A stretch of DNA of 48,749 nucleotides from a virus. Below the pieces are notes generated by a model. The model made no database searches. It was not told where the DNA came from and was given only the letters and a program-made list of their open reading frames with translations. The position numbers and the translations under genes were made by a program. Below, in pieces: positions 3,927 through 41,072 of the stretch; position 1 is the first letter of the stretch, and every line of letters begins with the position of its first letter. The stretch spans positions 1-48,749 of IMG/VR virus record IMGVR_UViG_3300030110_003370. One strand, written 5' to 3'.

Positions 3927-6900
3927 TCATTTTCATACAATCTTCTATATAAATCTGGATCAAGTTTTCTTAATTCACTTGGAGAGATTTTATCTTTTCC
4001 TTCTTCTGGAAATCTAATTTTTAGCTTTCCTCTTCTTATATCTTTATAAAAAGGAATTAATCCAAGTTGACCAAGCAGTTCAAATGTAATTCTATTTGTC
4101 AATTCTTCTTGAGCTCTATCTCTTGCATCCTGTGTTTTTCTTGTTTTAACTCTTCCAGCAAGTGCAGCACCCCTTGTTATTGTTTTTGCTAGAGGACCGT
4201 AGGGACCTGCTAAAATAGGTAAAGCTATTTCAGGTAGGGATTTTCCAGCAAAGTCATCAAGACCTATTAAGCTATAAACTATGGAGTCGTCATAAGCATC
4301 ATACTCACCACCATCTCTTAAAAAGTCCAGATATTCTTTATTTAAATACTCAATACCATAATTTACCGGTAGGGCTGGTATATTTCCAAGACCTCCTCTA
4401 AACATTAATGTGGATAAAGAGCCTATAACCTGTCTAGTTATTACTTTAGCTACATCTTCTTCCTCTTCTTCTTCAGGTGCTCCTAAAAATACTTCATCAA
4501 AATATTTAGAAAAGGTTCTATAAAGAATAACATATGATGACATACGTGCTAATATACCTGCCAACAATTTTCCTGCTTGAGCTTTAGATATTTCACCATC
4601 ATTAAGCATAGCTCCAACTGCAAACCTAGCTGTTGCATATTCATTTAAATTAAAGTTAGCCATGAAAGAGTTTATAACTCTATAAAAGTTTTTAAGACCT
4701 TCTCCTTTTTCATCCCTTCTAACGTTTTTTATTATAGCGTTAAATGGATTACCTGATGTAATAAACTCAGCTACAGTTTTATCAGATTGAAATGTCGCAT
4801 CTTTTATTGCTTGAGCATATTTACTATCTTTTAAATACTCAGAAGTGCCATCAGCAATTTTTTCAAAGTCATCTACAGTTAAATCTATATCTTCGTTTAA
4901 ATTATTTTTTACATTATTTTTAAATTCATTTGCAAATTTAGATATCCAAAGAGGCCTTGCAATTAATTTATCACCACCTCCCATTAATAAATCACTAATT
5001 GAGTTCACAACTTTATAAGTCTGTCTGAATCCCATATCTCCAATTATAGACATTTTTTCTTGCACCCTACTTTGCATTCCTGATTGTCTCATTTCAGATA
5101 AATTTAAATAATTATTAGGATCAGAGTATTTACTATCAGCTTGCCCAATTATTTCTCCTAATTTATTTACTTCAGCAGAATTTAAATTTTCTAATATTTT
5201 TAAATAGTTATCTCTCGCTTTTGGTTTTAAATTTAAACTTATAGAAGAATACTTATCGTATGCGTTTTCAATAACCTCGGCTGGTTGTGTTACAAGCATA
5301 GCTGCATTACCTAAAAGTTCAGCTGCAAATCTAGGAACAGATCCAAGTAAAACTCTATACCCCATTTTTTCTGCTTCTCTTTTTAAATTTAAACCAGTAG
5401 ATCCAGCATCCATGAAAGTTCTTATATAAGTTATTCTCAGTAATTCACGTACTGAATTTGCCAAAGCTAGAGAGGCATCTGCTTGTCCTTTATTTCCATT
5501 TTTATATTTGTTGAAAAGCTCGGATGTTAATGCTTGTATTCTTCCCACTTCGTCTTTCATATAAAAAGAAAGATTCGTTTCTTGTGTTCCCCTAAGCAGT
5601 GAAAGTATTGGATCAAAACTAATAGGCTTTATACCTGCCTCTCTTTTCTTTTCTGTAACACCCTCAAAATTTTGTGAAAAATCTATAGATTCATTTCTTA
5701 CATCGACATCTTGTTCAAGTGGAGATTTTAAAACTATTCTATGTGAATAATCATTTATAAGTTCAAGTTCTTTTCCAGATCGTTGAGCATTTTTAATTAT
5801 TTTCTGTTCAAGTTCTGCGTTTCTTTTATCTAATATTTTTAGCGCTTCCTTCTGAGATGGTTTTAACTTTTTATACATAGCATCAGGATTTATTTGACCG
5901 TTCCTAGAATGTTTTTTTATTAATTCATTTAACACTTTACCATCCTCTTCTGTTAAAAGTCTTCCTGCAATAGCTTCATTTGCTGTAAACTGAGCCATTT
6001 CTACAGGGTTTGGTGATATTTCAGAAGGGACACCATCAACTATGTTGCTTACATACTCTCTAGCTAATTGATATAATCTAATTTCATATAAATCTTTTGT
6101 TACATCATTTTGTCTTCTTCCCCTTCCTAAAAATTTATCTGTCTTTGACTTTCCTTCATATCTTATAAAGTCCTCTGCTTTTTCAGCATCGGTATTAACT
6201 CTTCTGTAATCCGATTTAAATTTATTATATACATCTATTATAGGTCTTATTACAGTACGAAATATTTTAGTGCTGTTGTTTAAACCAAAAGCTTGATCTA
6301 TTCTCATAGTCGATGTACCTCTAGCTTGCTCAGTTAACACACCTCTTTTTGTTAAATTAGATTTTATTTGAGAAGCAAAATTATCTAAGTTTGTTTTTAC
6401 CGCCTCCTCTGTTATTTTATTAAAAGATTCATCTAAAGTTTTTATATCATCTGTAATGTCTGCTCTTGGTTCTGCTTTCTCTGGCTTTGGAGTTTTTCTA
6501 CGCTCTGGAGATACTATGGTTTTTTCTTCTGCACGTCTTTCTGCTTCAAATATTTCTCTACTTACTCTTTCTTCTATTTGTTCTGGTGTTACATCAGCAA
6601 CCCTTTTTATGTTTGTGGGGCTTGCATTTAAACCTGTAAGCTCTTGAAATTTGTTTTTTAAATTTGTTAAAAGTTCAGGAGTGAACACTTCTAATGATCT
6701 GTTAAATTCTCCTCTTGTTTGAAAATCATTTATAAAATCTGTTACCTCTTCAATTGCAGGGACTGGCAAATTAGCTTCTTCAAATATTACTTGCCAACCG
6801 TCTTCTAAACTTTCACCACCTTTTTCTTTAGATGCGATCCATGTACGCCTAAAATTAGAAGACTTTTCAGAAACTTTATTACCTGTTACAGCCTCGTATG

Positions 6901-9202
6901 ATTCAGGGGTAAATTTAATTGAAAACAATACACTACTTAAAGGATTTAATGATGGATCGGCGGCTGTCTGCTTTTGTTCTTTTATTTTACTTTGAACAAA
7001 CTCTATTTCTTCAGCAATTTCAGTAGGATTATTACTTTCATCTAAAACTACATTAGAAAATTCTACTTCACTCAGTCCCTCTGTTTGTATTTTTTCTTCT
7101 GGATTTACATTTATTAATCCGGTTTGTATAATTTGTTTTTCAACATTACTTAAAGAATTACTTGATGGTTTTTTACCATCTTTAGTAATGCTAACAATCT
7201 TGTTATCCTCAATAACAACATCAAAGTTTCCTATTTTATTTGTAGCTGGAGCTACTTCCTCAACAACTTCCTCCTCTACCTGAGTTCTAAATTCTTCAAG
7301 CACCGGCTGACCTTCTCCATAATCAAAACTTCTAGGATTTGCTTTTGTTACCTGTGCTGCGTTTTTTGTTTTTACAGCAACAAGGCTTCCTGTCTTAATA
7401 TTTCTGACATAGTATTTACCAGTTCCCTCTTCATCTATTTCTAACCCTGCTTTTTTATTTCTATTATCAATAATCTCAAAATCTTTCTTGGCTTTTCTTG
7501 GATCTTCTGGAAGAGTGTAGGTTTCTACCTCGCTCTCCTCAGTCTCAACCTGAGTTTCGACCTCTTCGGCTGGTTGCGTTGTCGTTTCGATTTGCTCGGA
7601 TGTAATCTCTCCGGCAATCTCTGCCCCTTGGGTGTCTCCCTCTCGAACTGTTGGGCTAGTTTCGGGTTGTTCCGATACAGGTATCGTCTCTGTGCTTGGC
7701 TCTTGAATGGCATCGCTTATTGTTTTAAATTGTTCTTCTAATTTTTTTAATTTTACCTTTGCGTTTGGTGTTTTATTATCTTTAGTTTTTGTTATTTCTT
7801 TATTTAATGCAATCAATTGTTTTAACTGCTCATCATTAGGCTGTTTGTCTTCATCAAATGTTTCTTTAATTTGCTCTGCTATAGGAGCGTCTTGTCTAGC
7901 TTGATTTACTTTTTGCTTTAAAATTGGATCATTTTCTATGTCATAAGTAATACTTGTTATAGCTTCATAGTCGTCACTATTTATAATTTCTTCTATAACA
8001 TTTTTATTTACAGCTTCCCCATTAATTTTATATACAGGTGTTTTAGCTACACCTATTGCTGTTCCTATTACAGATGGCCCAGCTATCTCACCTAGAGCTT
8101 CAAAACCTATTTCTGCAACATCCATTTCTTGTCCAGCTACTGCTCTACCCGCAGCTTCTGCTGCACCCCCACCTACAGCTTGAGTTCCTAGTCCTGATAA
8201 AACTCCAGCAGTTCTTCCTAGTTTTGTTCCAACTTTTGCTGCTACTCCACCTGCTAGACCTCCAGTTACCGCATTTAAAGCAGATATGGTCGCTCCTCTT
8301 CCAAGCGATCTATTTCTAATCCTGTTTCTTGATTCATCATCTTCTAAAACTTTTCTAATATTTTCATCAGTAAACTCCAATCCTTTTTTTTGTAATTCTT
8401 CTTTTAAAAATTCTGTGTATGACAAAGCAGTTTCAAGAGCTCCTGTCATACCAAGTATAGAACCAATACCAGCTCCCGCAGTAGATGTTATAGGGGCTAA
8501 AATACCACCTGCTAATCCTGCTGCCGCTCCAGCGCTTGCTCCTGCTGCTCCGGCCGTGATTGAAGGTAGGTTTCCCATCGATCTTAAAGAGGATACAGCT
8601 ACTTGAACCGCAGCTGTTGGGTTTTTTAAAATACCTTTAACAAAACCTTTCACACCCTTTCCCTCTGCTTCATAAATTCGGCTAAAGTCTTGCATTTCTT
8701 CTGAAGGAGAAAATGATTCCATCGTTTGAACTGCCTGAATATAATCTTGTAATGTCTCCTCAGTTACATTAGTACCACTAGCAAAAACTTTAAGAGCATC
8801 GTCTACTGTACCTGCTTGGCCTGCTCCAGTTTTCCATGCTCTGTATAAATCTCCAAAAAAATCAGTGACCTCGTTTTTACCAAATGCTCTTTCTATTGCA
8901 GTATCTTTTTCAGCAGTAGGAGTTATATTAAGACGTTGGTTTCTTGATAATTTGCTGGGCTGAGAAATGCCATTTTCCAATCCTGAAACCATATCGGACT
9001 CGTCTTTTTTTTTTAAACCTAGGTTTGTTGCCCATAAATCAAACTCGGAGTCTGTTAAATTTTGATTTGATAAATAACTGTGAATATTTTTTTGAACACC
9101 CTCGTCTTGTTGTATATTAATAGACCATTCATCAAAGGGAGAATTTGTTAATCCCTGAGAGGAGAGATAATTCCATATATTATTTAAAACCTCCTCGTTC
9201 AT
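3923..9202 (-). CDS. Giant internal virion/ejection protein (T7 gp16-like position)
   Basis: At 1759 aa this is the last gene of the late operon. The N-terminus has two copies of a roughly 27-residue helical repeat (NIWNYLSSQGLTNSPFDEW and NIHSYLSNQNLTDSEFDLW). A glycine/alanine-rich hydrophobic stretch follows at about 205-270 (ITAGAAGASAGAAAGLAGG), then a long acidic, disordered region at about 480-900. The C-terminal half is helical and includes a short acidic run EEEEEE near 1570 and hydrophobic segments (ALPVNYGIEY). This layout fits phage DNA-ejection/internal core proteins and 'large polyvalent' virion proteins, and the order GNAT, 244 aa, 517 aa, 1759 aa mimics T7 genes 13-16. A GC-rich patch at 7525-7713 holds a second, out-of-frame gene. 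No lysozyme or protease motif was recognised. Start overlaps the upstream stop as TAATG. Confidence 0.8.
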   Translation of the reverse strand: MNEEVLNNIWNYLSSQGLTNSPFDEWSINIQQDEGVQKNIHSYLSNQNLTDSEFDLWATNLGLKKKDESDMVSGLENGISQPSKLSRNQRLNITPTAEKDTAIERAFGKNEVTDFFGDLYRAWKTGAGQAGTVDDALKVFASGTNVTEETLQDYIQAVQTMESFSPSEEMQDFSRIYEAEGKGVKGFVKGILKNPTAAVQVAVSSLRSMGNLPSITAGAAGASAGAAAGLAGGILAPITSTAGAGIGSILGMTGALETALSYTEFLKEELQKKGLEFTDENIRKVLEDDESRNRIRNRSLGRGATISALNAVTGGLAGGVAAKVGTKLGRTAGVLSGLGTQAVGGGAAEAAGRAVAGQEMDVAEIGFEALGEIAGPSVIGTAIGVAKTPVYKINGEAVNKNVIEEIINSDDYEAITSITYDIENDPILKQKVNQARQDAPIAEQIKETFDEDKQPNDEQLKQLIALNKEITKTKDNKTPNAKVKLKKLEEQFKTISDAIQEPSTETIPVSEQPETSPTVREGDTQGAEIAGEITSEQIETTTQPAEEVETQVETEESEVETYTLPEDPRKAKKDFEIIDNRNKKAGLEIDEEGTGKYYVRNIKTGSLVAVKTKNAAQVTKANPRSFDYGEGQPVLEEFRTQVEEEVVEEVAPATNKIGNFDVVIEDNKIVSITKDGKKPSSNSLSNVEKQIIQTGLINVNPEEKIQTEGLSEVEFSNVVLDESNNPTEIAEEIEFVQSKIKEQKQTAADPSLNPLSSVLFSIKFTPESYEAVTGNKVSEKSSNFRRTWIASKEKGGESLEDGWQVIFEEANLPVPAIEEVTDFINDFQTRGEFNRSLEVFTPELLTNLKNKFQELTGLNASPTNIKRVADVTPEQIEERVSREIFEAERRAEEKTIVSPERRKTPKPEKAEPRADITDDIKTLDESFNKITEEAVKTNLDNFASQIKSNLTKRGVLTEQARGTSTMRIDQAFGLNNSTKIFRTVIRPIIDVYNKFKSDYRRVNTDAEKAEDFIRYEGKSKTDKFLGRGRRQNDVTKDLYEIRLYQLAREYVSNIVDGVPSEISPNPVEMAQFTANEAIAGRLLTEEDGKVLNELIKKHSRNGQINPDAMYKKLKPSQKEALKILDKRNAELEQKIIKNAQRSGKELELINDYSHRIVLKSPLEQDVDVRNESIDFSQNFEGVTEKKREAGIKPISFDPILSLLRGTQETNLSFYMKDEVGRIQALTSELFNKYKNGNKGQADASLALANSVRELLRITYIRTFMDAGSTGLNLKREAEKMGYRVLLGSVPRFAAELLGNAAMLVTQPAEVIENAYDKYSSISLNLKPKARDNYLKILENLNSAEVNKLGEIIGQADSKYSDPNNYLNLSEMRQSGMQSRVQEKMSIIGDMGFRQTYKVVNSISDLLMGGGDKLIARPLWISKFANEFKNNVKNNLNEDIDLTVDDFEKIADGTSEYLKDSKYAQAIKDATFQSDKTVAEFITSGNPFNAIIKNVRRDEKGEGLKNFYRVINSFMANFNLNEYATARFAVGAMLNDGEISKAQAGKLLAGILARMSSYVILYRTFSKYFDEVFLGAPEEEEEEDVAKVITRQVIGSLSTLMFRGGLGNIPALPVNYGIEYLNKEYLDFLRDGGEYDAYDDSIVYSLIGLDDFAGKSLPEIALPILAGPYGPLAKTITRGAALAGRVKTRKTQDARDRAQEELTNRITFELLGQLGLIPFYKDIRRGKLKIRFPEEGKDKISPSELRKLDPDLYRRLYEND
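7525..7713 (-). CDS. Nested small basic phage protein (MPFKSQAQRRYL family), overprinted
   Basis: A complete 62-codon ATG-to-stop frame lies wholly inside the 1759-aa gene, on the same strand, in a different frame. Its product begins MPFKSQAQRRYLYRNNPKLA and continues with FERETPKGQRLPER and a Lys/Arg tail. I recognise the opening and the TPKG...LPE pattern as a widespread short phage protein of unknown function, so the match is not random. The patch has a GC content unlike its surroundings (31/60 G+C at 7561-7620 and 34/60 at 7621-7680, against 12/60 at 7741-7800), suggesting a captured gene. In the main frame the same DNA encodes a disordered Thr/Glu/Pro-rich linker. Whether the nested frame is translated is unknown. 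Confidence 0.55.
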   Translation of the reverse strand: MPFKSQAQRRYLYRNNPKLAQQFERETPKGQRLPERLHPSKSKRQRNQPKRSKLRLRLRRAR

Positions 9203-11916: not shown

Positions 11917-13503
11917 TTACGGAAAGCTTTTCATAACTTCAGATTCTACGGCAAATAATTCAGTAGCGGTAGTGTTAAAGTTTTCAATGGTTATGGTCAT
12001 TTGATGTCCAAGCATTCCCACATCTTCTGCTTCTGTATTTTTAAGAGCTAATATAAAAGGAGTAGTTTCGCTAATCAAAACATTCTGAGTAAAGTTTGTA
12101 TTGACAAATAGTCTGTTTATACCACTCTGTAAATTAATCTCAACATTAGTTACTTGTCCACTAAAACTTATTGTTGTATATGCACCTTCGGAGAAATAAA
12201 TATAATCTCCAATATTAACCATGCTTATATCTATTACAGGACTGACTGAAAAATTTAATGTTAATACATTGTTTGATTCTGACCAAGAAGTAGCTTTAGC
12301 TACACCTTGCGCAGATCTATAAGCATATTCTCCAGCTAAAGCAGGTGTCGTACCTGTTTTTCTTATATAAGAAAAATATGCACCTTCTTTTTTCTCAAAC
12401 CAAGTGTAGTCAATAAAACCTCTATCTTGTAAATTTGTTTCCATAGTTGCTGTCCAAGCAGAATCAGATTCAAGATTTACACTTTTAAAAAGTTTATTTT
12501 CTAATGGATTCTGATTAAATACAGTTGTTACTTGTGAATTAAATTGTTCTCCATAATAATTATTCCTGGTTTCATTTGTATTGTGTCTGTATAAATTACC
12601 ACCTTTAAATGAGTATAAGTAGTTGTTCATTCCAACCATAAAATCAGGATTATAAGAGTAGAAAGATGGCCATCCTTGTACACCAGCGCTATATGATAAA
12701 GTATAATTAGTGGTGATAGGCGAAGGTATAGGTGGTACTGTGCTTGGTGTCGGTGGAGTAGGAGGAGTCGGAGTAGGTGTTGGAGCGGAAGGTACACTAC
12801 AAACATTGCTATTGTAAACTAAATTATTTTGTCCACCCATGTAGCCATGATAGTAACATTCATAGCTCACTGTTCCATAATCACCAACAACTGTTATTGT
12901 TACATCTCCCCAATAATATGTATAAGTATTACCATCTAATCCAACTTTTGGGCCGACTGCATTTGTTCCAGTATAAGTAATTACATTAGTTAAATTAAAA
13001 TTTTGTATAGCTATAGGGTGTTGGGCTGGAACATCTTTTAAAACATATGAGCCAACGTTTGTTGCATATGGCTGTGCGTAAGCTCCATTAAATTGATAAA
13101 CATTTACTCCGCTTTCAACTCCAAAAGCTACTGTGTTTTCTCCTTGTAAACAAGTAACACTGCTTGGGGTTGGCCCGGGCGTTGGCGGGCTTGGGGGTGT
13201 AGGAGGCGTAGGAGGCGTAGGCGGCGTAGGTATAGGACTTGAATTTTGGTCTCCACATTGAGTTGAACAACTTGTGTCAACTGGGCCTTCCGAATATCCT
13301 TCTGTTGTTATTAAGTTAATATAACCTGATCCTGACAATTGACCATAATGTCCAGATGTGTCAAGACAAACTTGTATTAATTGGTTTGGTTGTATTGTTA
13401 CCTCATCGAGTCCTACTAGATCAGTAGCACAACATCCTATTTCCCATGTACAAGGTTGATTAGCGTCAAGAGGACAAATTAACTGATAAGTTTTACAGGA
13501 CAT
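11917..13503 (-). CDS. Virion/adhesin protein with Pro-Thr linkers and cupredoxin-like domain
   Basis: The 528-aa protein has four parts. Residues 1-90 form a Cys-rich N-terminal domain (CPLDANQPCTW, GCCATD, SCSTQCGD). A Pro-Thr linker at about 90-115 (PTPPTPPTPPTPPSPP) leads to a beta domain at 116-238. This ends with VSYECYYHGYMGG, giving Cys216, His219 and Met222, and together with His162 (AQHPIAI) reproduces the His-Cys-His-Met ligand set of type-1 copper cupredoxins. A second Pro-Thr linker at about 239-262 joins a beta-rich C-terminal domain of about 265 residues. I infer a structural, probably surface-exposed protein. Similar domains occur in marine phage proteins as I recall. It follows the dioxygenase and glycosyltransferase genes, which may modify its linkers. 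Confidence 0.75.
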   Translation of the reverse strand: MSCKTYQLICPLDANQPCTWEIGCCATDLVGLDEVTIQPNQLIQVCLDTSGHYGQLSGSGYINLITTEGYSEGPVDTSCSTQCGDQNSSPIPTPPTPPTPPTPPSPPTPGPTPSSVTCLQGENTVAFGVESGVNVYQFNGAYAQPYATNVGSYVLKDVPAQHPIAIQNFNLTNVITYTGTNAVGPKVGLDGNTYTYYWGDVTITVVGDYGTVSYECYYHGYMGGQNNLVYNSNVCSVPSAPTPTPTPPTPPTPSTVPPIPSPITTNYTLSYSAGVQGWPSFYSYNPDFMVGMNNYLYSFKGGNLYRHNTNETRNNYYGEQFNSQVTTVFNQNPLENKLFKSVNLESDSAWTATMETNLQDRGFIDYTWFEKKEGAYFSYIRKTGTTPALAGEYAYRSAQGVAKATSWSESNNVLTLNFSVSPVIDISMVNIGDYIYFSEGAYTTISFSGQVTNVEINLQSGINRLFVNTNFTQNVLISETTPFILALKNTEAEDVGMLGHQMTITIENFNTTATELFAVESEVMKSFP

Positions 13504-13519
13504 AAAAATAAATTATCTA

Positions 13520-13527
13520 CAAATTTA
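13520..13527 (-). promoter_or_regulatory. TAnnTTTG -7 box upstream of 528-aa virion gene
   Basis: Minus strand reads TAAATTTG, ending 16 nt before the ATG at 13503, in the short gap after the glycosyltransferase gene. It fits the -7 consensus seen repeatedly in this late region. Confidence 0.45.
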
Positions 13528-13543
13528 CAAAAATTTATTGGTG

Positions 13544-14167
13544 CTAATCAAAAAAGCCCCATATCCCCGTTTGATGATGTTTAGTAAAAGAAATATCGTT
13601 AGAATTGTTAAAAAGAGTTGCAGGTAAAATATCAAATGAGTATTGATTATTTTGTTTTACAAATTCAGATAAAGCTATCGGGCCTACTGTTTTTCTTACA
13701 ATGTGCCCCGGTATGTGCTCCGTTATTTGAGGGTACTTGCTCACAACTTCAATATTTTCAATAATATTTTTACGACATTGTAGCAAAAATTCTGACCAAA
13801 AGTTAGAGGGTGGAGAAATCATTAAACTGTTTTGAACATATTCATCACTTGCGTTCGCTTCTACTATATAAATTTTTTGTTTATCAAGTAAGTGTATAAA
13901 AGGAGCAGTGAGCTCCATATCCATATCAGCGTATACTCCCCCTATATTTTCTAGTATTACATATCTAACGTAATCTAATTTGAATATTTTATGCAGTCCG
14001 CTAATTACTTTATAAAATTCTGAATCATAACATTTTAAATAAGTGTCAATGTCATTATCATTCCATATTTTATAATTACAGTTATATTTTTGCCAAGACT
14101 TTAAACAATGATGCCATAGTTTTGGCCATTTAGTTCTATCTTCAGGCGCTAAAAAATGTATTATCAT
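13544..14167 (-). CDS. Glycosyltransferase, GT32/OCH1-like
   Basis: The 207-aa protein matches the glycosyltransferase sugar-binding DXD region of OCH1/GT32-type enzymes. It opens with MIIHFLAPED...WPKLWHHCLKSW, has NYKIWNDNDID near 31-41, and the diagnostic block DYVRYVILENIGGVYADMD with Asp81-x-Asp83 for nucleotide-sugar and metal binding; a C-terminal HHQTGIWGF carries a likely active-site His. It is cytosolic with no signal or TM helix. The start overlaps the dioxygenase stop (ATGA), so the two are made together. Placement between two Pro-Thr-rich virion genes suggests it sugars virion proteins rather than host lipopolysaccharide or DNA, but that is inference. Confidence 0.82.
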   Translation of the reverse strand: MIIHFLAPEDRTKWPKLWHHCLKSWQKYNCNYKIWNDNDIDTYLKCYDSEFYKVISGLHKIFKLDYVRYVILENIGGVYADMDMELTAPFIHLLDKQKIYIVEANASDEYVQNSLMISPPSNFWSEFLLQCRKNIIENIEVVSKYPQITEHIPGHIVRKTVGPIALSEFVKQNNQYSFDILPATLFNNSNDISFTKHHQTGIWGFFD

Positions 14168-15414
14168 GCGAACTTATAATGAACGTAAAAGTTTCTAAAA
14201 TAATTTCCTCCAAATAATTCTTTTCTTGCATGTTCACAAACAGCAGATTCATATAATATCATATCTCCAGGCTGAGTGTAGACCTTGTACCACTCTCCAT
14301 CATGACCTTTAATATCTAAAGGCCAGTCGTCTGCATATTTTTTGTTTTGACAGCCACACGTTAAATCTTTATCTACTATAATAATTGAAGATATATGGTG
14401 AGTTTCAGCTCTGTCTACGTGTTCTTTTAAACTTGAACCTTTTTCATAAGAGCGTATACCATAAACAAAAGTTGGTATAAGTTCTTTGCCGCAAAAATCC
14501 TCATGCATTTCTTTTAGCTCTTCATGTAATAAATTTTTAATTGAAGGTAGATGGTCAAAACTCAAAAGCTTTGTGTCTCCTGGCACGTATTCTTCTTTAC
14601 CACTAAATTGCTCTACTGATTCTTTTTCTTTTAATAAATTATAACAATCTTTAATTATAGACCAAAGTTTATCTGGACATTTTGTTAAAGAAAAACCATT
14701 TTCAGTGAGTCTAGGAAGAGGCCCTTCAGAATTTACTTTTGGTTTTGAAACCTTAATTATTTTACTTTCTAAAACCGGCTCAGGTTTTTGAACTACAGCT
14801 GATTCATAAGGTACAGGTTGAAGATTTTTATATTCTTCATATTTTTTCATATCCCCTGCTCCATCCCATTTATTTTCTCTCCACCAAGAAGTAACTATAT
14901 ATTTTTTACCTGATTTAACAGCTACACCTTCGTGCAAAGTCTCTGATACAGTTGCACCTTCATGCATATTTTTCCACCACAATGCTTTTCCTTTTTCTGC
15001 CACGACTGATTTTTTTAAAGTAGGAAAGTTAGTTTCACCTCCCTCAAAGTCATCGTTAAGATATATCATCAAGGTGTGAGTTCTGTTGCCAGAGGCTCTA
15101 CAATGCATGTTATAAGCTGGGCCTGTAAAAAAGTCATTATGAGGTTTAAAGTATTGTCCAGGCTCATATAATTGGCCTTGCAGTGACTCTCCTTTTTCTA
15201 AAGGTAAATTTAAGTATTGAGAAATTTTAGAGTGAATTTCTTTTACTGTTTCTAAATTTGGGTCTAAATTACTTGTGCTTGATGTTCTATGGTCGGTAAC
15301 ATCTGAGCGGTCTGTTCCACCAACAACAACTGAAGAACGTGTGTGATTGGCGTCAATTAATTTTATTATTTCATCACACTCTTCGTGAGAAATAAAGTTA
15401 GGAATTTCGTGCAT
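14164..15414 (-). CDS. Tandem 2-oxoglutarate/Fe(II) dioxygenase (prolyl 4-hydroxylase-like)
   Basis: The 416-aa protein contains two dioxygenase domains. Domain 1 (1-180) is P4H-like: YEPGQYFKPHNDFF with His92-x-Asp94, a GGETNFP turn near 125, distal His161, and a Lys near 170 for 2-oxoglutarate (TLHEGVAVKSGKKYIVTSWW). Domain 2 (about 235-416) has SYEKGSSLKEHVDRAETHH with His332-x-Asp334, a PGDMILYES strand, His395 in CEHARKELFGG, and Arg406 or nearby basic residues. The two are joined by a Pro/Lys-rich linker (residues 195-235). P4H enzymes hydroxylate proline in peptides; both domains appear to keep their iron ligands. It sits directly after the 2223-aa Pro-Thr-rich nozzle gene and overlaps the glycosyltransferase gene, pointing to modification of virion proteins. 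Other substrates are possible. Confidence 0.85.
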   Translation of the reverse strand: MHEIPNFISHEECDEIIKLIDANHTRSSVVVGGTDRSDVTDHRTSSTSNLDPNLETVKEIHSKISQYLNLPLEKGESLQGQLYEPGQYFKPHNDFFTGPAYNMHCRASGNRTHTLMIYLNDDFEGGETNFPTLKKSVVAEKGKALWWKNMHEGATVSETLHEGVAVKSGKKYIVTSWWRENKWDGAGDMKKYEEYKNLQPVPYESAVVQKPEPVLESKIIKVSKPKVNSEGPLPRLTENGFSLTKCPDKLWSIIKDCYNLLKEKESVEQFSGKEEYVPGDTKLLSFDHLPSIKNLLHEELKEMHEDFCGKELIPTFVYGIRSYEKGSSLKEHVDRAETHHISSIIIVDKDLTCGCQNKKYADDWPLDIKGHDGEWYKVYTQPGDMILYESAVCEHARKELFGGNYFRNFYVHYKFA

Positions 15415-15448
15415 TTGATTGGATTTAATTTATGTAAAGTTATTAAAA

Positions 15449-18400
15449 TTATTGTTGCTGACAAATTAGACAAGGCCCAAATTGACCATTAGACCATTCC
15501 CTATAATATGACCCGTCAGCAACATAGGTGTCGGAAACTGAAGTACTACAGTTTGCATCAGTTCTAAAAAAGTTAGATGCTTGACAGAACGATGAATTAT
15601 TAAAGTACATTGTTTCAAAACGAGTTGGATTACAAGCTAACGTCGGTGAGCTTCCTGTAGACATATTGTTTATAGCAAAACAAGTTGGTGTAGGTGGACT
15701 CGGTGGCGGCGTAGGCGGCGTAGGTGTAGTCGCTTGACATAAAGAACATGAAGTAAAATCATCATAGTTTGAATATAAAGCACCAGTGCTTCCTCCAAGA
15801 GTTGAATATTGATAACAAATACCAGATATTTTTAATACAGTAGGGAAGGTTGTTCCCGAAGGCCCACTCACATAAGCAACAGCATCAAAACCATCACAAT
15901 CTAAATATTGTGCATATACGACAGCAGGTGTTGGCGGTGTTGGCGGCGTAGGCGGTGTAGGTGCGGGAGTAAATCCACCACAATTACTTTCAATTCCTGT
16001 TGTAGTTACATCATAGGTTGAGCTTGCAACATCAACTGCAATAATTTCCCAATATTTTGAATCATCAGGCCCACCTGATAGTGTAACGGCTAGACCCACT
16101 GAAAATCCAGCGCCATTTGTTATTTGGACATTATACTCAGTACCACTAGATTGATAACATTCTCTTATTGTTACCCTTTGACTAGTAGGAGGAGTAGGTG
16201 TTGGTTGAGGAACAGGAGCAGGAGTTGGAGGACATCCTGTGCTTGTTCCAACTGCTATTATATCATTTCCTAATATATTATCTGATGTTGTTTCAAGTCC
16301 AGCCGTACCATTATAATAATAAAAATCATAATCTTGACCAGTTCCTGTACCTGAAGAACCATCTACATATCTCTGATTGTTTTGAGGTGCTTGAGTTAAA
16401 AATTTATAACCTCCTTGAGGAGCTGTTCCGTCTGCTCTAGTACACCCAACTAGAAAATAATAAAGACCAGATGGTGTAGGAGGTGGTTCTGAAGGCCAAT
16501 CTGTACAATCTGCTACTATACCTACATAAGCTAAGGTTACCAAAGGATTAGCAGTTCCAACAGCTGTAATTTTATAATTAGCATCACCATCGAATTCAGG
16601 ATAGGATGATACTGGTTGTCCGTAGTTTCCATTTAATCTAACTGATGCGTTTACTATAAAATCTGATATTGTGGTAGAACCGCTTGTTGGTATATTATTA
16701 ATGGTAACAATATAAGAAGATCCAGTACCATCACACAATTGTATAGTGAAGTTTTCAGAGGTAAAACTTGATGGAACTGGAGGTACTGGTGGATCATCTA
16801 CACACGAATCACAATTATCAAAAGTGTCTGTTGTAACATCTACACTTGAAGTAGTGCTTGTGCTTGCAGAGTAACTATAACATATTCCGTTATATTTAAT
16901 AACATTAGGGAACGGAGTAGTTTCTATAACTCTAAATATTTGTATTAAAAGATTGTCTTCACAACCTAAATAAGTAGCGTAAACATATGTTGGCGCTGTT
17001 GTTGTAGTTGTAATTGTTGAACCAACTCCTGTTCCATGCTCATTTATTGCATAAGCAGTAACATAATAAGTTGTGCTTTGTGATGCTCCTCCAAAATAGT
17101 AAGAGTAAGACCCTGTAGAAGTGCCTCCTTCAATGTACTTGGTGTTATTTGAATATAAAGAATCAGTTCCTATGTAAAATCCTCTTTCAGTTACAGTTCC
17201 ATTTGCAGTATCAAGACTACCGTTAGCTGTGAAAGCATTGTAAGCTATGTTTGTTGACGTATTAGTTGTCATAGCTGGCGCATTGGTTGGTGTTGGTGTA
17301 GGTGTAGGGGCTGCTGCAATACAAGTTGGACAGTCTGTAAATTCATCAGACCCTGTAGGTATATCAATAGAAGAAACCACTGACACAGCTGTAGGGGTTT
17401 GATAACAAATATTTTGATATCTAACTACCGCAGGGAAACTATATCCAACAGCTGCTCTAAACACAACTGTATTTGGGCCTTGACACTCAGTATATCTTGT
17501 AAAATCAAATGATGGCGTTGGTGTAGGCGTAGGTACACTAGCATTTCTGTAATCATAAATTAAATATAAATGATTTTCTGTTGTTGTTGGAGTTGGTACT
17601 GTAAAGCTTCCCGTATAAAGTTCAGGAGCATTTAAATTATTTATTGGTATAGTGGTTTCTAAACCTAAAAGAGTCGTTATATCAGCCTCTGTATTGGAGT
17701 ATATTGTATTAGTTCTTACAAAGCCTAATGAATTATTTGCAGTATCAAAAACAAAATCATCAAATTTAATTTTATTTACACCTAATGTCATTATAGAACC
17801 ATTAGTAGGTATACTTCCTACACCCTGGTCTCCAACTATTTTTTTATACTGAGATATAACAAATGATCCTGTTCCAGTTCCAAATGGAACTAAATCAGAT
17901 TGTGTTGAAGAAACTAAATATCCATCAGACCAACTTAATTCGTTGTGAATAAATTTACCTGCGTCCGCTGCACTTGTTACACATACACTGTAAACATTTA
18001 ACAATGTACCAGATGGACACTCTACAGTGACCTCTATGGTATCAGCAACAGTTGAATTTGAAGATAGAGTAATTAAAACTTGGTCATCAATAGAAACATT
18101 TTTTTCAAATGTAAAAGTACCACTTGTGTAAACCACTCCTGTTGTAGTTACGTTATTATTATATGTAGCAGATATTGTATATCCAACAACTCCTATTCCT
18201 CCTTCAGTAGTAATATTATCTCCTCCCTCTGTAACAATATTTTGCGACGTAGCTTCAGTTATAATGTTTTGCGGCCCCTCATCTGGTATTTCATATCTAA
18301 CCACAACCGTCCCCTCTTGCGGCTCTAAATCAACACAATAAAGTATTTCTTGGCCTGCCGGAATAGTAACATCTCTAGAGACACCACAGGCTGTACATTT

Positions 18401-21400
18401 AGCTACTTCTGGTTTTAATATTGTATTAGAAGTTAAAACATATTCATTCATATAGGGGTCATAAGCACCTAGTTTCTGCGTGGTAAAAGATTTAGTAAAT
18501 AAATCTCTAAAGAAACTTCTCATTCCTGCCTCTGATATAACTTCTAATCTTTCATTTTGAGCAGAGCTTCCTATTAAATGTATAACGGCGCTTCTTTTAC
18601 CATCCGTAAAATATTTACTTTCACCCCATACTGCAAAACTTTCTGGATTATTGCTTATTCCATAATTTTCTATTCTTGCTATTTGTTTACCTAATACAGA
18701 AGGAACAGCTGTTAGTTGTCCTCCTCCTGTTGCGTCGGTTAGTAAATCTTTACCAGCTAAAACATAAGATATTTTATCCTCTTGCAAAACTAATATATCA
18801 TCCTTTCTAGCAAATAATATTTCTACATCTCCGAAGGTTTCTTCTAGTGGTTTGAAGTTTGCAAGTCCTAAATTAAATTCGTTAAGTTTATTTACATTAG
18901 TTTCGTCATTAAAAACGCCACTATAGGTTAAGTCTGCAAATCTATGAGCTTGTTGAAAAGTAGTATTATTAGTTGTAAAAGTTCTATTACCTAAATTAAA
19001 CTGTTTTCCAGAAGAAGAATCTTGAATCTTATAACTTTCTACTCCATTTCCAAATGTAAAACAATTTGAAAAATTTAAACTTACAGTTGCCGCTACTCCT
19101 TGAGCTATGTTTTGATTAACTACATTTCCAGAATGCTGACCTATGCTGTCAATAGTAAATGATTGTGACCCTTCATACCATAAATCAGGTAGTGCGTCCA
19201 CAGGTTTGGTTTCGAATATCACCTCAGCTTCTCTTCTAAAAACAGTGATGTTTACAGTGACCCTCGATCTTTTTGCTGTGCTATTACCACAACATCTAGT
19301 ACCGGAAACCATTAAATAATAATTACTTGTTGAAGTGTCTTTATATAGCCTGTAGTAATTGTTATCAGTTAAATCACCTTGTGAGGAAGGACTATCTGTA
19401 TCGCCTCCAAAAACTGTAGATGCTGACAGGTCACTAAAACTTCCATTTTGTATTGATGTTTTAGAACCTGCTGCTGATGCCACTGAGTTTATAAAAATAT
19501 TACCAACTGGATTATTACCACTAAATGCAACATCAGGGACAACTATGGCATTATTTTCAATAACACCTTCAAAATTTTCACCTTGCACAAATTCTTCCCA
19601 GTTTGAATAAGTTTCACTACAAATAAATGTATGGTCTAAAATACTTGTTCTTCTTTCACACGCACCAACACCAGCTCCAACTCCTTGTCTATTTTGATCT
19701 ACCGTAATCCTTACTTCTGAACCTACAGGTAAATCATAATTACCATTTGTTAAACCAGGTACAGTGGTGTCAAATAATGGATAAGCAAGCATAGGATAAT
19801 GATTGTTGTCATTAGCCACTAATGTGTCTACCTTGACATCTATAATATTACCTACGGTTGTTTCAGCTGCAAAATTTATATTATTAAGCTTCATGTAAGT
19901 ACCTCCGGGCACAGGAATAACATTACCTGCAGAGTCCTTTGGCTCAATAAATTTAGCAGACTGCACCGCAACATCTAAGACTTGAGTAGTTGTACAGTTT
20001 CTTAAAGCACCTGAAGCATCTCTTTTTACTATTAAATTATCTCCAATGTTTACTTTATTTATATTATCACCTTGTAACAAAAAGAAAACTTCATTTGAGT
20101 CAGGGTCTTGAAAATATAAAGAAGTATAAATAGTGTCATATGTATCTTTATCTGCTTTTATACAAAACTTATATCTGGTCGCAAAACTAGGCGCTCTTTG
20201 ACTTGCTGGTATGCTTACGTTTATTGTATTCTTAGTGGAAGAGGTCGAGCAAGGAAAATTAACAGTATTAAGTTTACTTACTAACGCCGTGGATGCTCTA
20301 TTAAAAGAATCCATGTATATTATACCGACTTCATATCCTCTATTACTATGCAAGCTAGATGTATTTCCAATTCTTCTAATCGATACGTTTGCTGATGTGA
20401 ATTTGTAATATTCTATAAAAGTATTAGAACCTCCGTTCTCTAAATATTGAGCTGCTAATATTTGTATGGTTAAAGCATTAGTATTGGTAGTGTCTTGTAA
20501 TATACTTAAAGGCTCTCCTTTACTGGGTAGAGCAGCAGTAGAACTAGATATTCCTGTTTGCTGTAAATCATAAGTTGGTGTGGTTAAAGTAGAGGATAAA
20601 CTGTTATTAAATAAATCTGTTAATGTAATTCCTGTTCCTGCCTGAGCATTAGCAACAGTTTGTATATCTGCTTGTATTGACCCAAATTTAGCCTTGAAAT
20701 CAGCTGAAGCTATTAAATCACCTAATGGGTCGCTTGAAGCTGTAAAATCTTGAGATAGAATATAAGTAAAGCCAATGTTTGTGCTAGGTGTTGTTCCGGT
20801 TGTGGTTGGACTACCAAAAAATTGACTATGAATAAATGTAAAATCTACACTAATCTGTGCGCCAACTACAAAATCACTAGTCAAATTGTTGAAATCTAAT
20901 ACTAATTTAGAATCAGTAATTGATCTATTATCACTAAAGGCTGTATAATTTACGCCTGTTTCTATTGTAATAGGTACAACACTTTCTCCTAAACCTTCAC
21001 TTGAACCATTAACAACAAAATCAAGATTTACTTTTTTGTTTTGAACATCAACTAAATCATAACCTTCCACATAGTTACCATAAACCAATCTATTGGCCAT
21101 TAAAGTTTGAGCTTTGGCTAAAGTAGGCACGTTATCATAAAGTCTTAATATTTCTGCCTCTGGTAAAATTGAAAAAATTTGAGCTGCATCAAAAGTAATT
21201 TGTTCATTTGTACTATTATCTGGTATTGAATTTTGAGCTTTGTCTAGCCTCTGTATAACTTTTATAGTAGGATCATTTGCTTCTTTAAATAATATATCTA
21301 TACCCTTGACAAGTTTACCACCAGAATTATATCTTACTATCGCTGCGTTAAATGAATTAAGCATTCCCTGATTAGCAAAAGTAGCAGGTGAAAAAGAAAA

Positions 21401-22120
21401 TCCACTAGGTAAAAAAGCAGGTTCACTAAATTGAGACGGCGCAGAATATTCATCATTGCTATACTTATACCTATAAGCAAAACAAATAAAATTCTCTGTT
21501 AAGTAAGTGTCTTCATTATTTGCTTTAATTAGTTCAACAGTAGGAGCGCTTAAAGGTGACTGTTTTATAACTTGAATTTCTCTTGAATCAAACTGATCTA
21601 CATTGTTTACAGGGTTTGCATAATTTCTGTTAATATTAATAACTCTAGGTGGATTAAAATTATCTGTAAAAAATAATAAATCATCTATTTTGTTAATACC
21701 GGTGATTAAAAACTCAGGATTAAAATTTAAGGTTGTGGATTGACCAAACCCATTATCAATACTAATTACATGATAATTAACTCCTCCAGTTTCTACATTA
21801 AAAGAAACAATTAGATCTAGTTTTCCTGTGTCTCCATTTGTAAATGCAGGATCATGTATAAACCAATAAATTGTTGCTCTGGCACTATCGTCAAATGCAC
21901 CTATACACCTAGCAGAGTCACTTAATAAAACACCATTAATATATGCTAGTTGTGTTAATACAGAGTTTCCTTTAGAATTTTCTACTGAACCAACCTCTGA
22001 TTGCTCAGTTGAACCTAATCTTACATTCAAAGCATTTGTATATTCGCCATTAGGTAAAAGCCTTTCATCAAGGCTTTTATTCATACGGCCTGCTATAAAA
22101 TTTCTTTGAACGTTTGCCAT
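15449..22120 (-). CDS. Nozzle-like tail protein fused to Cys-rich, Pro-Thr-linked adhesin modules
   Basis: The 2223-aa product opens NFIAGRMNKSLDERLLPNGE followed by YTNALNVRLG, like the start of beta-propeller tail nozzle/tubular B proteins that sit under the adaptor ring. The gene directly follows two ring/adaptor-like genes, supporting that role for roughly the first 1250 residues. From about residue 1240 the chain is built of beta modules: an internal CTACG and a strand-rich domain, a fibronectin III-like segment (about 1615-1710), and several Cys modules ending in CxxC (CPTC, CDSC, CSLC, CLIC). They are separated by linkers such as VPTPTPTPS, APTPTPTPTN and PAPTPPTPPTPPTP. The C-terminus reads FGPCLICQQQ. 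I infer a combined nozzle and host-binding spike. Exact domain limits are approximate. Confidence 0.75.
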   Translation of the reverse strand: MANVQRNFIAGRMNKSLDERLLPNGEYTNALNVRLGSTEQSEVGSVENSKGNSVLTQLAYINGVLLSDSARCIGAFDDSARATIYWFIHDPAFTNGDTGKLDLIVSFNVETGGVNYHVISIDNGFGQSTTLNFNPEFLITGINKIDDLLFFTDNFNPPRVININRNYANPVNNVDQFDSREIQVIKQSPLSAPTVELIKANNEDTYLTENFICFAYRYKYSNDEYSAPSQFSEPAFLPSGFSFSPATFANQGMLNSFNAAIVRYNSGGKLVKGIDILFKEANDPTIKVIQRLDKAQNSIPDNSTNEQITFDAAQIFSILPEAEILRLYDNVPTLAKAQTLMANRLVYGNYVEGYDLVDVQNKKVNLDFVVNGSSEGLGESVVPITIETGVNYTAFSDNRSITDSKLVLDFNNLTSDFVVGAQISVDFTFIHSQFFGSPTTTGTTPSTNIGFTYILSQDFTASSDPLGDLIASADFKAKFGSIQADIQTVANAQAGTGITLTDLFNNSLSSTLTTPTYDLQQTGISSSTAALPSKGEPLSILQDTTNTNALTIQILAAQYLENGGSNTFIEYYKFTSANVSIRRIGNTSSLHSNRGYEVGIIYMDSFNRASTALVSKLNTVNFPCSTSSTKNTINVSIPASQRAPSFATRYKFCIKADKDTYDTIYTSLYFQDPDSNEVFFLLQGDNINKVNIGDNLIVKRDASGALRNCTTTQVLDVAVQSAKFIEPKDSAGNVIPVPGGTYMKLNNINFAAETTVGNIIDVKVDTLVANDNNHYPMLAYPLFDTTVPGLTNGNYDLPVGSEVRITVDQNRQGVGAGVGACERRTSILDHTFICSETYSNWEEFVQGENFEGVIENNAIVVPDVAFSGNNPVGNIFINSVASAAGSKTSIQNGSFSDLSASTVFGGDTDSPSSQGDLTDNNYYRLYKDTSTSNYYLMVSGTRCCGNSTAKRSRVTVNITVFRREAEVIFETKPVDALPDLWYEGSQSFTIDSIGQHSGNVVNQNIAQGVAATVSLNFSNCFTFGNGVESYKIQDSSSGKQFNLGNRTFTTNNTTFQQAHRFADLTYSGVFNDETNVNKLNEFNLGLANFKPLEETFGDVEILFARKDDILVLQEDKISYVLAGKDLLTDATGGGQLTAVPSVLGKQIARIENYGISNNPESFAVWGESKYFTDGKRSAVIHLIGSSAQNERLEVISEAGMRSFFRDLFTKSFTTQKLGAYDPYMNEYVLTSNTILKPEVAKCTACGVSRDVTIPAGQEILYCVDLEPQEGTVVVRYEIPDEGPQNIITEATSQNIVTEGGDNITTEGGIGVVGYTISATYNNNVTTTGVVYTSGTFTFEKNVSIDDQVLITLSSNSTVADTIEVTVECPSGTLLNVYSVCVTSAADAGKFIHNELSWSDGYLVSSTQSDLVPFGTGTGSFVISQYKKIVGDQGVGSIPTNGSIMTLGVNKIKFDDFVFDTANNSLGFVRTNTIYSNTEADITTLLGLETTIPINNLNAPELYTGSFTVPTPTTTENHLYLIYDYRNASVPTPTPTPSFDFTRYTECQGPNTVVFRAAVGYSFPAVVRYQNICYQTPTAVSVVSSIDIPTGSDEFTDCPTCIAAAPTPTPTPTNAPAMTTNTSTNIAYNAFTANGSLDTANGTVTERGFYIGTDSLYSNNTKYIEGGTSTGSYSYYFGGASQSTTYYVTAYAINEHGTGVGSTITTTTTAPTYVYATYLGCEDNLLIQIFRVIETTPFPNVIKYNGICYSYSASTSTTSSVDVTTDTFDNCDSCVDDPPVPPVPSSFTSENFTIQLCDGTGSSYIVTINNIPTSGSTTISDFIVNASVRLNGNYGQPVSSYPEFDGDANYKITAVGTANPLVTLAYVGIVADCTDWPSEPPPTPSGLYYFLVGCTRADGTAPQGGYKFLTQAPQNNQRYVDGSSGTGTGQDYDFYYYNGTAGLETTSDNILGNDIIAVGTSTGCPPTPAPVPQPTPTPPTSQRVTIRECYQSSGTEYNVQITNGAGFSVGLAVTLSGGPDDSKYWEIIAVDVASSTYDVTTTGIESNCGGFTPAPTPPTPPTPPTPAVVYAQYLDCDGFDAVAYVSGPSGTTFPTVLKISGICYQYSTLGGSTGALYSNYDDFTSCSLCQATTPTPPTPPPSPPTPTCFAINNMSTGSSPTLACNPTRFETMYFNNSSFCQASNFFRTDANCSTSVSDTYVADGSYYREWSNGQFGPCLICQQQ

Positions 22121-39962: not shown

Positions 39963-41072
39963 TTAATAAAAACTTACTGTATCGCTACCCGCAGTAAACG
40001 ATGTTATTTTATCACTACCATCTGTAGTGGTTGAACTTGTTAATCCGCTTCCAACTGTTATTGTATAGGTATTTGGATATCTAACGATTACTATACCTGA
40101 ACCTCCAGCACCCGAAGTGTATGAAGCACCGTTTGTGTTATTTCCACCACCACCAGCTCCTAAGTTTGCAGTCCCAGCTGTTCCTCCCTGTTTAGGCAGG
40201 GGAGTATCTCTACCACCAGCTCCACCACCACCAGCTCCACCAGCTCCACCATCTCCTCCTTCACTTCCACCACCTCCACCACCAGCGTATGTTACAGATG
40301 AACCAGTTATACTTACAGCGTACCCAGCACCACCAGCTCCACCAATTCTTCCACCTAAAGTGTTGTTTCCATTTGTTCCTATAGCTCCTGCTCCACCACC
40401 ACCTCCAGGCCCAAACAGATGATTTTGTGATGAACCATTTGATGACCCACCTGCAAAACCTTGATTAGTTGTTCCTGCACCTCCCGCACCTACATAATCA
40501 CTTCCTGCAACATAGTTGGTATATCCACCACCACCACCAGAACCTCCAACTTTACCATCACCAAATTGTGTACCAGAATTGTCAAAAGTTCCTCCTCCAC
40601 CTCCGCCTGTAGATGTGATTGCAGCAAAAACTGAATCGCTGCCACTTATACCTTGTATAAATGAAGAACTTAATCCTGGAGCAGCTCCTCCAGCACCTAC
40701 TGTTACAGTATACGAAGTGCTTAAAGATATACTTGCTTTAGACTCTGCTGAGCCACCTCCACCAGAAGTTGAACCAAAAGATGTTCTAAGTCCTCCAGCT
40801 CCTCCTCCACCTCCGTAGGTATTTCCACCAGAACCTCCTCCAGCGACTACTAAAAAGTCAGCTTGAAAATCTACGCTAGGTGATGCCGCTCCTTCAGAGA
40901 ATCTTTTCCAGTCTGCGTTGTCTTTGTATTCGAGTCTGCTATCTGTAGTATTTAATCTAACATCTCCAGCAACTCCTGTTGGTCTCTCGGCTGTCGTTCC
41001 CTTAGCCCACACTAGACCTCCAGTGTTACCACTCATGTCTATAAAGTTTGTAGTTACTTTGTTTGTTGCCAT
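39963..41072 (-). CDS. Glycine-rich fibre/adhesin protein
   Basis: The 369-aa protein begins with the attachment-like segment (GLVWAKGTTAERPTGVAGDV, RLNTTDSRLEYKDNADWKRF) common to the adhesins of this island. Residues about 72-310 are a glycine-rich domain (LVVAGGGSGGNTYGGGGGAG and later GGGGGGS runs) that closely resembles the end of the 1025-aa protein, suggesting duplication and shuffling. A short beta tail ends it. Glycine-rich tips of this type recognise outer membrane receptors in other phages. Confidence 0.75.
   Translation of the reverse strand: MATNKVTTNFIDMSGNTGGLVWAKGTTAERPTGVAGDVRLNTTDSRLEYKDNADWKRFSEGAASPSVDFQADFLVVAGGGSGGNTYGGGGGAGGLRTSFGSTSGGGGSAESKASISLSTSYTVTVGAGGAAPGLSSSFIQGISGSDSVFAAITSTGGGGGGTFDNSGTQFGDGKVGGSGGGGGYTNYVAGSDYVGAGGAGTTNQGFAGGSSNGSSQNHLFGPGGGGGAGAIGTNGNNTLGGRIGGAGGAGYAVSITGSSVTYAGGGGGGSEGGDGGAGGAGGGGAGGRDTPLPKQGGTAGTANLGAGGGGNNTNGASYTSGAGGSGIVIVRYPNTYTITVGSGLTSSTTTDGSDKITSFTAGSDTVSFY

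Follow-up and report, generated by a model that had tools for sequence, protein, structure and literature searches.

A putative prolyl hydroxylase and an exchangeable glycosyltransferase slot beside proline-rich tail-tip linkers in an uncultured Crassvirales-like phage

The window analyzed in this work comprises 48,749 of the 49,996 bases of the uncultured virus record IMGVR_UViG_3300030110_003370, and it encodes a two-domain 2-oxoglutarate (2OG)/Fe(II) oxygenase, a putative prolyl hydroxylase, together with a glycosyltransferase (GT), between two virion proteins with proline-rich linkers. Because the linkers and the hydroxylase were nearly always found together in related phages while the sugar enzymes beside them were swapped, it was suggested that the tail tip is first hydroxylated and then glycosylated by the phage's own enzymes, and such a virion-protein modification module is probably what the locus represents. 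Window proteins matched phage virion families (TerL, portal, major capsid-type, ring-type and tail), and the best annotated records for the larger linker protein, of 2223 amino acids (aa), were MW202828 (41% across aa 1-1527) and Cellulophaga phages of Pachyviridae. The virus is an uncultured tailed podophage, Pachyviridae/Crassvirales-like and kin to flavobacterial phages, and its host is probably a flavobacterium.

On the minus strand, the genes were ordered as 2223-aa virion protein, 416-aa oxygenase, 207-aa glycosyltransferase and 528-aa muzzle protein, and the stop of the oxygenase overlapped the start of the glycosyltransferase by four bases (ATGA at 14164-14167). The first-pass annotation of this DNA had placed these genes, the overlap and the two flanking proteins correctly. 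The features were as follows.

15449..22120, minus strand: 2223-aa virion structural protein whose C-terminal extension is rich in linkers, likely substrate of the modification (phrog_14478 on aa 5-1526, E 1e-202)
15674..17311, minus strand: part of that extension with six Pro/Thr linkers at aa 1604-1616, 1777-1788, 1873-1884, 1964-1982, 2049-2068 and 2128-2149 (linker rule and shuffles)
14164..15414, minus strand: two-domain 2OG/Fe(II) oxygenase, 416 aa, putative prolyl hydroxylase (PF13640 E 2e-15; solved prolyl 4-hydroxylases by profile and fold; catalytic residues invariant in 77 homologues)
14863..15414, minus strand: oxygenase domain 1 (aa 1-184), prolyl 4-hydroxylase-like, with H92, D94, H161, K171 and R111, and F89 at the place of the prolyl 4-hydroxylase Tyr (homology and alignment; meaning of Tyr and Arg from PMC4396695)
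14164..14709, minus strand: oxygenase domain 2 (aa 236-416), divergent 2OG oxygenase domain with H332, D334, H395 and R397, and L329 at the Tyr position (alignment)
13544..14167, minus strand: glycosyltransferase, 207 aa, GT32-type, DMD motif (PF04488 E 1.1e-9)
11917..13503, minus strand: 528-aa muzzle protein, with an N-terminal extension bearing two Pro/Thr linkers and a muzzle C-terminal domain, likely substrate (PF25729 crAss_MUZ_C E 6e-16)
13153..13248, minus strand: muzzle linker 1 (aa 86-117), QNSSPIPTPPTPPTPPTPPSPPTPGPTPSSVT (linker rule and shuffles)
12712..12798, minus strand: muzzle linker 2 (aa 236-264), SVPSAPTPTPTPPTPPTPSTVPPIPSPIT (linker rule and shuffles)
11917..12708, minus strand: muzzle C-terminal domain (aa 266-528) (PF25729)

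A scan for promoters and terminators gave no more sites than shuffled sequences did.

The linkers were defined by 12-residue windows in which 5 or more residues are Pro and 9 or more are Pro/Thr/Ser. By this rule the 528-aa protein contained 61 linker residues in two stretches, compared with a maximum of 17 in 2000 composition-preserving shuffles, and the 2223-aa protein contained 98 in six stretches (maximum of 12 in 500 such shuffles). No comparable linkers were found in other window genes, which agrees with the earlier claim that PTPPTP-type linkers are confined to the two flanking proteins. An origin by chance was ruled out by the shuffles, and a DNA repeat artefact in the form of a single slipped repeat was ruled out by the mixed Pro and Thr codons. 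Opposite a Gly-rich tail protein gene, two Pro-rich open reading frames on the plus strand (40117-40422 and 40516-40818) run antisense and were judged not to be genes. The name "tail adhesins" given to the linker proteins was replaced, as the 528-aa protein matched the Crassvirales muzzle C-terminal domain (PF25729, 59.1 bits against a cut-off of 27) and the other is a large, conserved component of the virion that carries an extension rich in linkers. In enzyme-less relatives the muzzle protein was about 265 aa long and began at the muzzle domain, without the extension, and the tail protein was mostly 1460-1670 aa and matched only aa 1-1528 of the 2223-aa protein. Separately, muzzle aa 118-235 (window 12799-13152, minus strand) appeared cupredoxin-like by eye (HPIAI ... 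CYYHGYMGG, C-x2-H-x2-M) and recurred in relatives, so that a copper site between the two muzzle linkers is possible on this by-eye reading.

Domain 1 of the oxygenase matched solved prolyl 4-hydroxylases (P4Hs) by family profile (Bacillus E 4e-36, Chlamydomonas 5e-22, human C-P4H 1e-20, chlorovirus 1e-20), and the predicted fold of the oxygenase (pLDDT 78) retrieved the same enzymes, among them the algal structure in complex with (Ser-Pro)5 (PDB 3gze). The HxD...H motif reported for both domains was verified (H92/D94/H161 and H332/D334/H395) and was kept in 77 relatives with a single D334E exchange. The residues expected of a P4H, namely the iron ligands H92, D94 and H161 and the 2-oxoglutarate lysine K171, were invariant in 77/77 homologues, as were Y83 and R111. 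R111 aligned with Arg161 of CrP4H, which lies at the active-site mouth and is common to P4Hs and prolyl 3-hydroxylases (PMC4396695). Domain 2, in which R397 was conserved as well, gave no match to solved structures by sequence, and the relative L146 retained domain 2 only. A bacterial source of the two-domain enzyme did not emerge from a single, insensitive pattern-based scan of genome contigs, in which 44 pattern matches included no relative. Taken with the gene context, the homology of domain 1 makes it likely that the oxygenase hydroxylates linker prolines.

The distribution of linkers and enzymes in relatives was determined by two scans. In the enzyme-based scan, 80 of 113 loci found were kept (58-100% identical); all 80 enzyme homologues fell in one phage group, and Pro-rich linkers were present in 67/67 readable upstream neighbours and 73/73 readable muzzle proteins. 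A second scan used the muzzle domain and so did not depend on the enzyme; pooled with the known loci, it gave 79 non-redundant loci. The survey of related genomes that the first-pass annotation had proposed thus returned 36 loci with linkers and enzyme, 41 with neither, 2 with linkers and no enzyme, and 0 with enzyme and no linkers, and linkers and hydroxylase occurred together in 36/38 non-redundant members of the linker clade. The hydroxylase slot held no oxygenase in the 41 linker-free relatives; a small PF13640-like protein was encoded elsewhere in 8/36 relatives without the two-domain enzyme, and 7/8 of these were under the cut-off. Neither GT60 nor GT32 was found in the 14 linker-free relatives that were searched whole. 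Relatives with linkers and without both enzymes, which had been named as the refuting case, were not encountered inside the clade: two phages, L103 and L116, lacked the hydroxylase and kept GTs, and one sub-lineage lacked the GT and kept the hydroxylase. PF13640 had no match anywhere on the L103 and L116 contigs, and both phages encoded GT60 (E 5e-76 in L103) plus a tandem GT32 protein. Their linkers showed the highest Thr share of non-Pro residues (58% and 63%) among the 38 linker phages. In hydroxylase-bearing phages this share ranged from 12 to 51%, with Pro constant and the alternate residue varying. The early-branching L211 and L146, as well as L091, had linkers (also) in a separate adhesin-like gene.

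The 207-aa protein is of GT32 type, with a PF04488 score of 39.3 bits against a cut-off of 23 and DMD as its DXD motif, and it was the only PF04488 match in the whole window record. Its earlier description as "GT32/OCH1-like" was kept in the first part, and OCH1-like was considered a weak label (the sole solved relative was an OCH1-type mannosyltransferase, E 0.011). This gene occupies a slot between hydroxylase and muzzle whose content was exchanged among phages. Across 88 hydroxylase loci, 12 arrangements were observed, of which 11 were different gene sets and one was an empty slot, and 83 loci had one to four genes, sugar-type genes among them in each. In some loci the slot contained a GT32-type GT, in others a fused GT60-GT32 protein. 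GT60 (PF11397, E down to 3e-40) was accompanied either by a radical-SAM gene or by an O-fucosyltransferase (PF10250) plus an NAD epimerase. Other loci had a 277-aa family, in some cases joined by a GDP-mannose-dehydratase-like enzyme, or carbamoyltransferase sets plus a second small oxygenase-like protein. The 277-aa family had no Pfam match, and its predicted fold resembled GT6 (BoGT6a, ABO transferases; Foldseek E 7e-7, TM about 0.5). GT60, which is not in the window record, stood alongside the hydroxylase in the relatives L060, L063, L069, L070, L073 and L080. This family includes the Skp1 hydroxyproline GlcNAc-transferase (PMC6939170) as well as polypeptide GlcNAc-transferases that start mucin-type glycans (PMC8724618), and therefore fits phages both with and without the hydroxylase. 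On the basis of this slot content, the slot GTs probably glycosylate the same linkers.

Several further slot genes were recorded. Carbamoyltransferase, O-fucosyltransferase and second small oxygenase-like genes were located at L061:9324-10760 and L146:6832-8376, and a Radical SAM/SPASM protein beside the slot GT60 (L080:1674-2579) possibly introduces a further peptide modification. Linker-free relatives (L085-L158, e.g. L093:8233-8889) carried a variable slot protein of 183-561 aa, probably an adhesin, with the common start YYLDAPSLSSATVVYSD; a version of it bearing Pro-rich linkers was present in L091 and L146. Among cultured phages, GT60 matched in three jumbo phages; in Xanthomonas phage XacN1 it adjoins a carbamoyltransferase, and no oxygenase was annotated beside it in the jumbo-phage region that was read.

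A second type of locus was observed in the same position. In 28 other loci (L282-L309; mostly 6001-6915), mostly of the same wider phage group, phrog_4417 occupied the slot between tail protein and muzzle; the upstream tail protein had poly-Thr linkers in 27/28 and an oxygenase was present in 0/28. phrog_4417 has an invariant DxD, but it was not called a glycosyltransferase, because its profile gave no significant match to the GT6-fold family and none in Pfam. phrog_4417 was also present in 72 phage records (chiefly Firmicutes phages), some of which had it beside the major tail protein. That these loci parallel the hydroxylase/Pro-linker loci is suggestive only.

In the mechanism we propose, the tail-tip proteins would be made and domain 1 would then hydroxylate linker prolines in the host cytoplasm, with O2, Fe and 2-oxoglutarate required, and domain 2 would carry out a second hydroxylation. 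The adjoining GT, of GT32 type here, would add sugar to the linkers, most likely at the new hydroxyls and otherwise at Thr/Ser; that the sugar sits on hydroxyproline is close to an even chance, slightly short of it. The products would be stiff, protease-resistant, glycan-decorated stalks keeping the tail-tip domains off the particle, although this stalk role (stiffness, protease resistance, glycan display) is a guess by analogy with other hydroxyproline-rich glycoproteins. A swap in the GT slot would alter the displayed sugar, as expected if the glycan were under diversifying selection.

Several observations weigh against this mechanism. Sequence families, conservation, gene order, co-retention and exchange were observed directly, and linker modification is predicted from them. 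The position of CrP4H Tyr140 is Tyr in P4Hs and Leu in prolyl 3-hydroxylases (PMC4396695), and all 77 phage enzymes had F89 there, without the P4H-diagnostic Tyr (domain 2 had L329 at the corresponding position, 77/77). Because F89 replaces Tyr, the enzyme was labelled a prolyl-hydroxylase homologue that may act as a 3- or a 4-hydroxylase; by the homology of domain 1, "prolyl hydroxylase" is well supported and "4-" is not. GT32 was the only recognised GT both in the window record and in a 61-kb relative, and GT60 was found in neither. Searches of the window for PF11397 and PF10250 had no positive control there, although PF11397 did turn up in relatives. In the window phage, GT32 would therefore have to initiate the glycan or else elongate one supplied by the host. 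In 5 loci of one sub-lineage the hydroxylase was present with an empty slot, and neither PF11397 nor PF04488 matched on the 3 contigs checked. The linker phages formed one clade on the muzzle-domain tree (support 98/90), possibly reflecting a single acquisition; the counts therefore indicate co-retention after probably one gain, not convergence, with no independent gains available for a test of correlated evolution. The general rule that phage PT linkers need a P4H was dropped, as 19 unrelated contigs, many of them fragments, had PTPPTPPTP-type open reading frames and no PF13640, so that such linkers need no hydroxylase in general. Lastly, the P4H of a chlorovirus acts on peptides, and hydroxyproline was not detected in the virions (PMC7019647).

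Other explanations were weighed on the same evidence. The glycan might be attached to Thr/Ser, with proline hydroxylation an accessory that affects conformation only; this overlaps the mechanism above, in which the acceptor is left open, and we regard it as the less likely course, at perhaps one chance in a few. Many linkers are Thr-rich, GT60 includes the starters of mucin-type glycans (PMC8724618), and the two hydroxylase-less relatives pair Thr-rich linkers with GT60 and GT32. However, the hydroxylase-bearing L061, L139 and L146, with O-fucosyltransferase/carbamoyltransferase cassettes, had Pro-Ala/Val linkers in which Thr made up just 12-17% of non-Pro residues. It is unlikely that the enzymes are moron genes whose targets lie in the host (its envelope, one of its proteins such as EF-Tu, or nucleic acid) and whose placement among structural genes is incidental. 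2OG oxygenases are indeed common in marine phages and classed as auxiliary metabolic genes, and EF-Tu is reported to be modified by a Bacillus P4H that is related to domain 1 (PDB 5v7y), but the position of the oxygenase, with linker-bearing virion genes on either side, never varied, and in the 41 linker-free relatives that slot held no such gene. Slightly more doubtful is hydroxylation only, by which the oxygenase would stiffen a polyproline helix and the neighbouring GTs would act elsewhere, e.g. on host surface glycans. The empty-slot sub-lineage fits this, as does a slot content that varies while the hydroxylase does not; yet sugar-type genes occupied exactly the hydroxylase-adjacent slot in 83/88 loci, GT60/GT32 were missing from the 14 wholly searched linker-free relatives, and L103 and L116 lost the hydroxylase and retained linkers and GTs. 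Descent only, in which linkers and enzymes were gained together once with no functional link, agrees with the single clade and is the least probable, given that linkers lie in different proteins by lineage and GTs were replaced repeatedly, yet linkers and hydroxylase were kept in 36/38.

Modification of the phage's own linkers, the reading we prefer, had been put forward in the first-pass annotation as "extensin-like". The genomes lent it partial support, by the tie between linkers and enzyme and the exchangeable glycosylation-type slot, and did not support that wording. Because GT60 and GT32 recur in the cassettes, the closest known counterpart is not plant extensin but the Skp1 pathway of protists, in which prolyl hydroxylation and glycosylation take place in the cytoplasm. 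In Dictyostelium and Toxoplasma this pathway consists of PhyA, Gnt1 (GT60), PgtA (GT74/GT2), Glt1 (GT32) and Gat1 (PMC6939170, PMC8724618). Both systems combine a soluble prolyl hydroxylase with soluble GTs of shared families, whereas Skp1 is modified at one proline and the probable targets in this prokaryotic virus are repetitive virion linkers; moreover, the window phage has no GT60, the phage oxygenase has a second oxygenase domain, and the phage slot content varies. Plant and algal hydroxyproline-rich glycoproteins (extensins, arabinogalactan proteins) likewise have Pro-rich repetitive stretches, and domain 1 is kin to the algal P4H binding (Ser-Pro)5. However, the plant hydroxyproline pathway is secretory and uses other GT families, none of which was found among the phage loci (cassette GTs were of GT32, GT60, GT6-fold and O-fucosyltransferase types), and the phage linkers are Pro-Thr/Pro-X rather than the Ser-Hyp repeats that, with plant GTs, would define an extensin-like system. 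The chlorovirus PBCV-1 P4H (vCPH, PDB 5c5t) is also virus-encoded and related to domain 1 (E 1e-20), but is a shorter protein of a eukaryotic algal virus. To our knowledge, no prolyl hydroxylase is involved in mycobacteriophage capsid glycosylation, another case in which phage GTs were proposed to act on a virion protein (e.g. PMC11256854). Domain 1 belongs to the same broad set as the phage 2OG-Fe(II) oxygenases (phrog_61 and others, cyanophages), which have no substrate assigned, whereas the gene neighbourhood in the present phage points to a probable one.

Phage-encoded glycosylation of virions has been described, and so have viral P4Hs, each on its own. The viral use of prolyl hydroxylases, which rank among the more common auxiliary genes in aquatic phages, "remains cryptic" (PMC9301287). 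No paper tying phage prolyl hydroxylases to virion linkers was found in the literature searched, and this absence is no proof of novelty. The locus offers a specific candidate substrate for a phage prolyl hydroxylase, namely the tail-tip linkers encoded next door. With some reserve, we consider that a bacterial virus may use a prolyl hydroxylase of its own, together with interchangeable glycan cassettes, to build hydroxyproline-linked glycans on its tail tip, and that relatives with Thr-only linkers, a different slot enzyme and no hydroxylase may indicate that linker chemistry and enzyme evolve as matched pairs. If true, hydroxyproline-linked glycosylation, so far described in eukaryotes, would extend to prokaryotic viruses, phages would alter their tail-surface glycan through cassette exchange, and these loci would provide small enzyme sets for modifying Pro-rich linkers.

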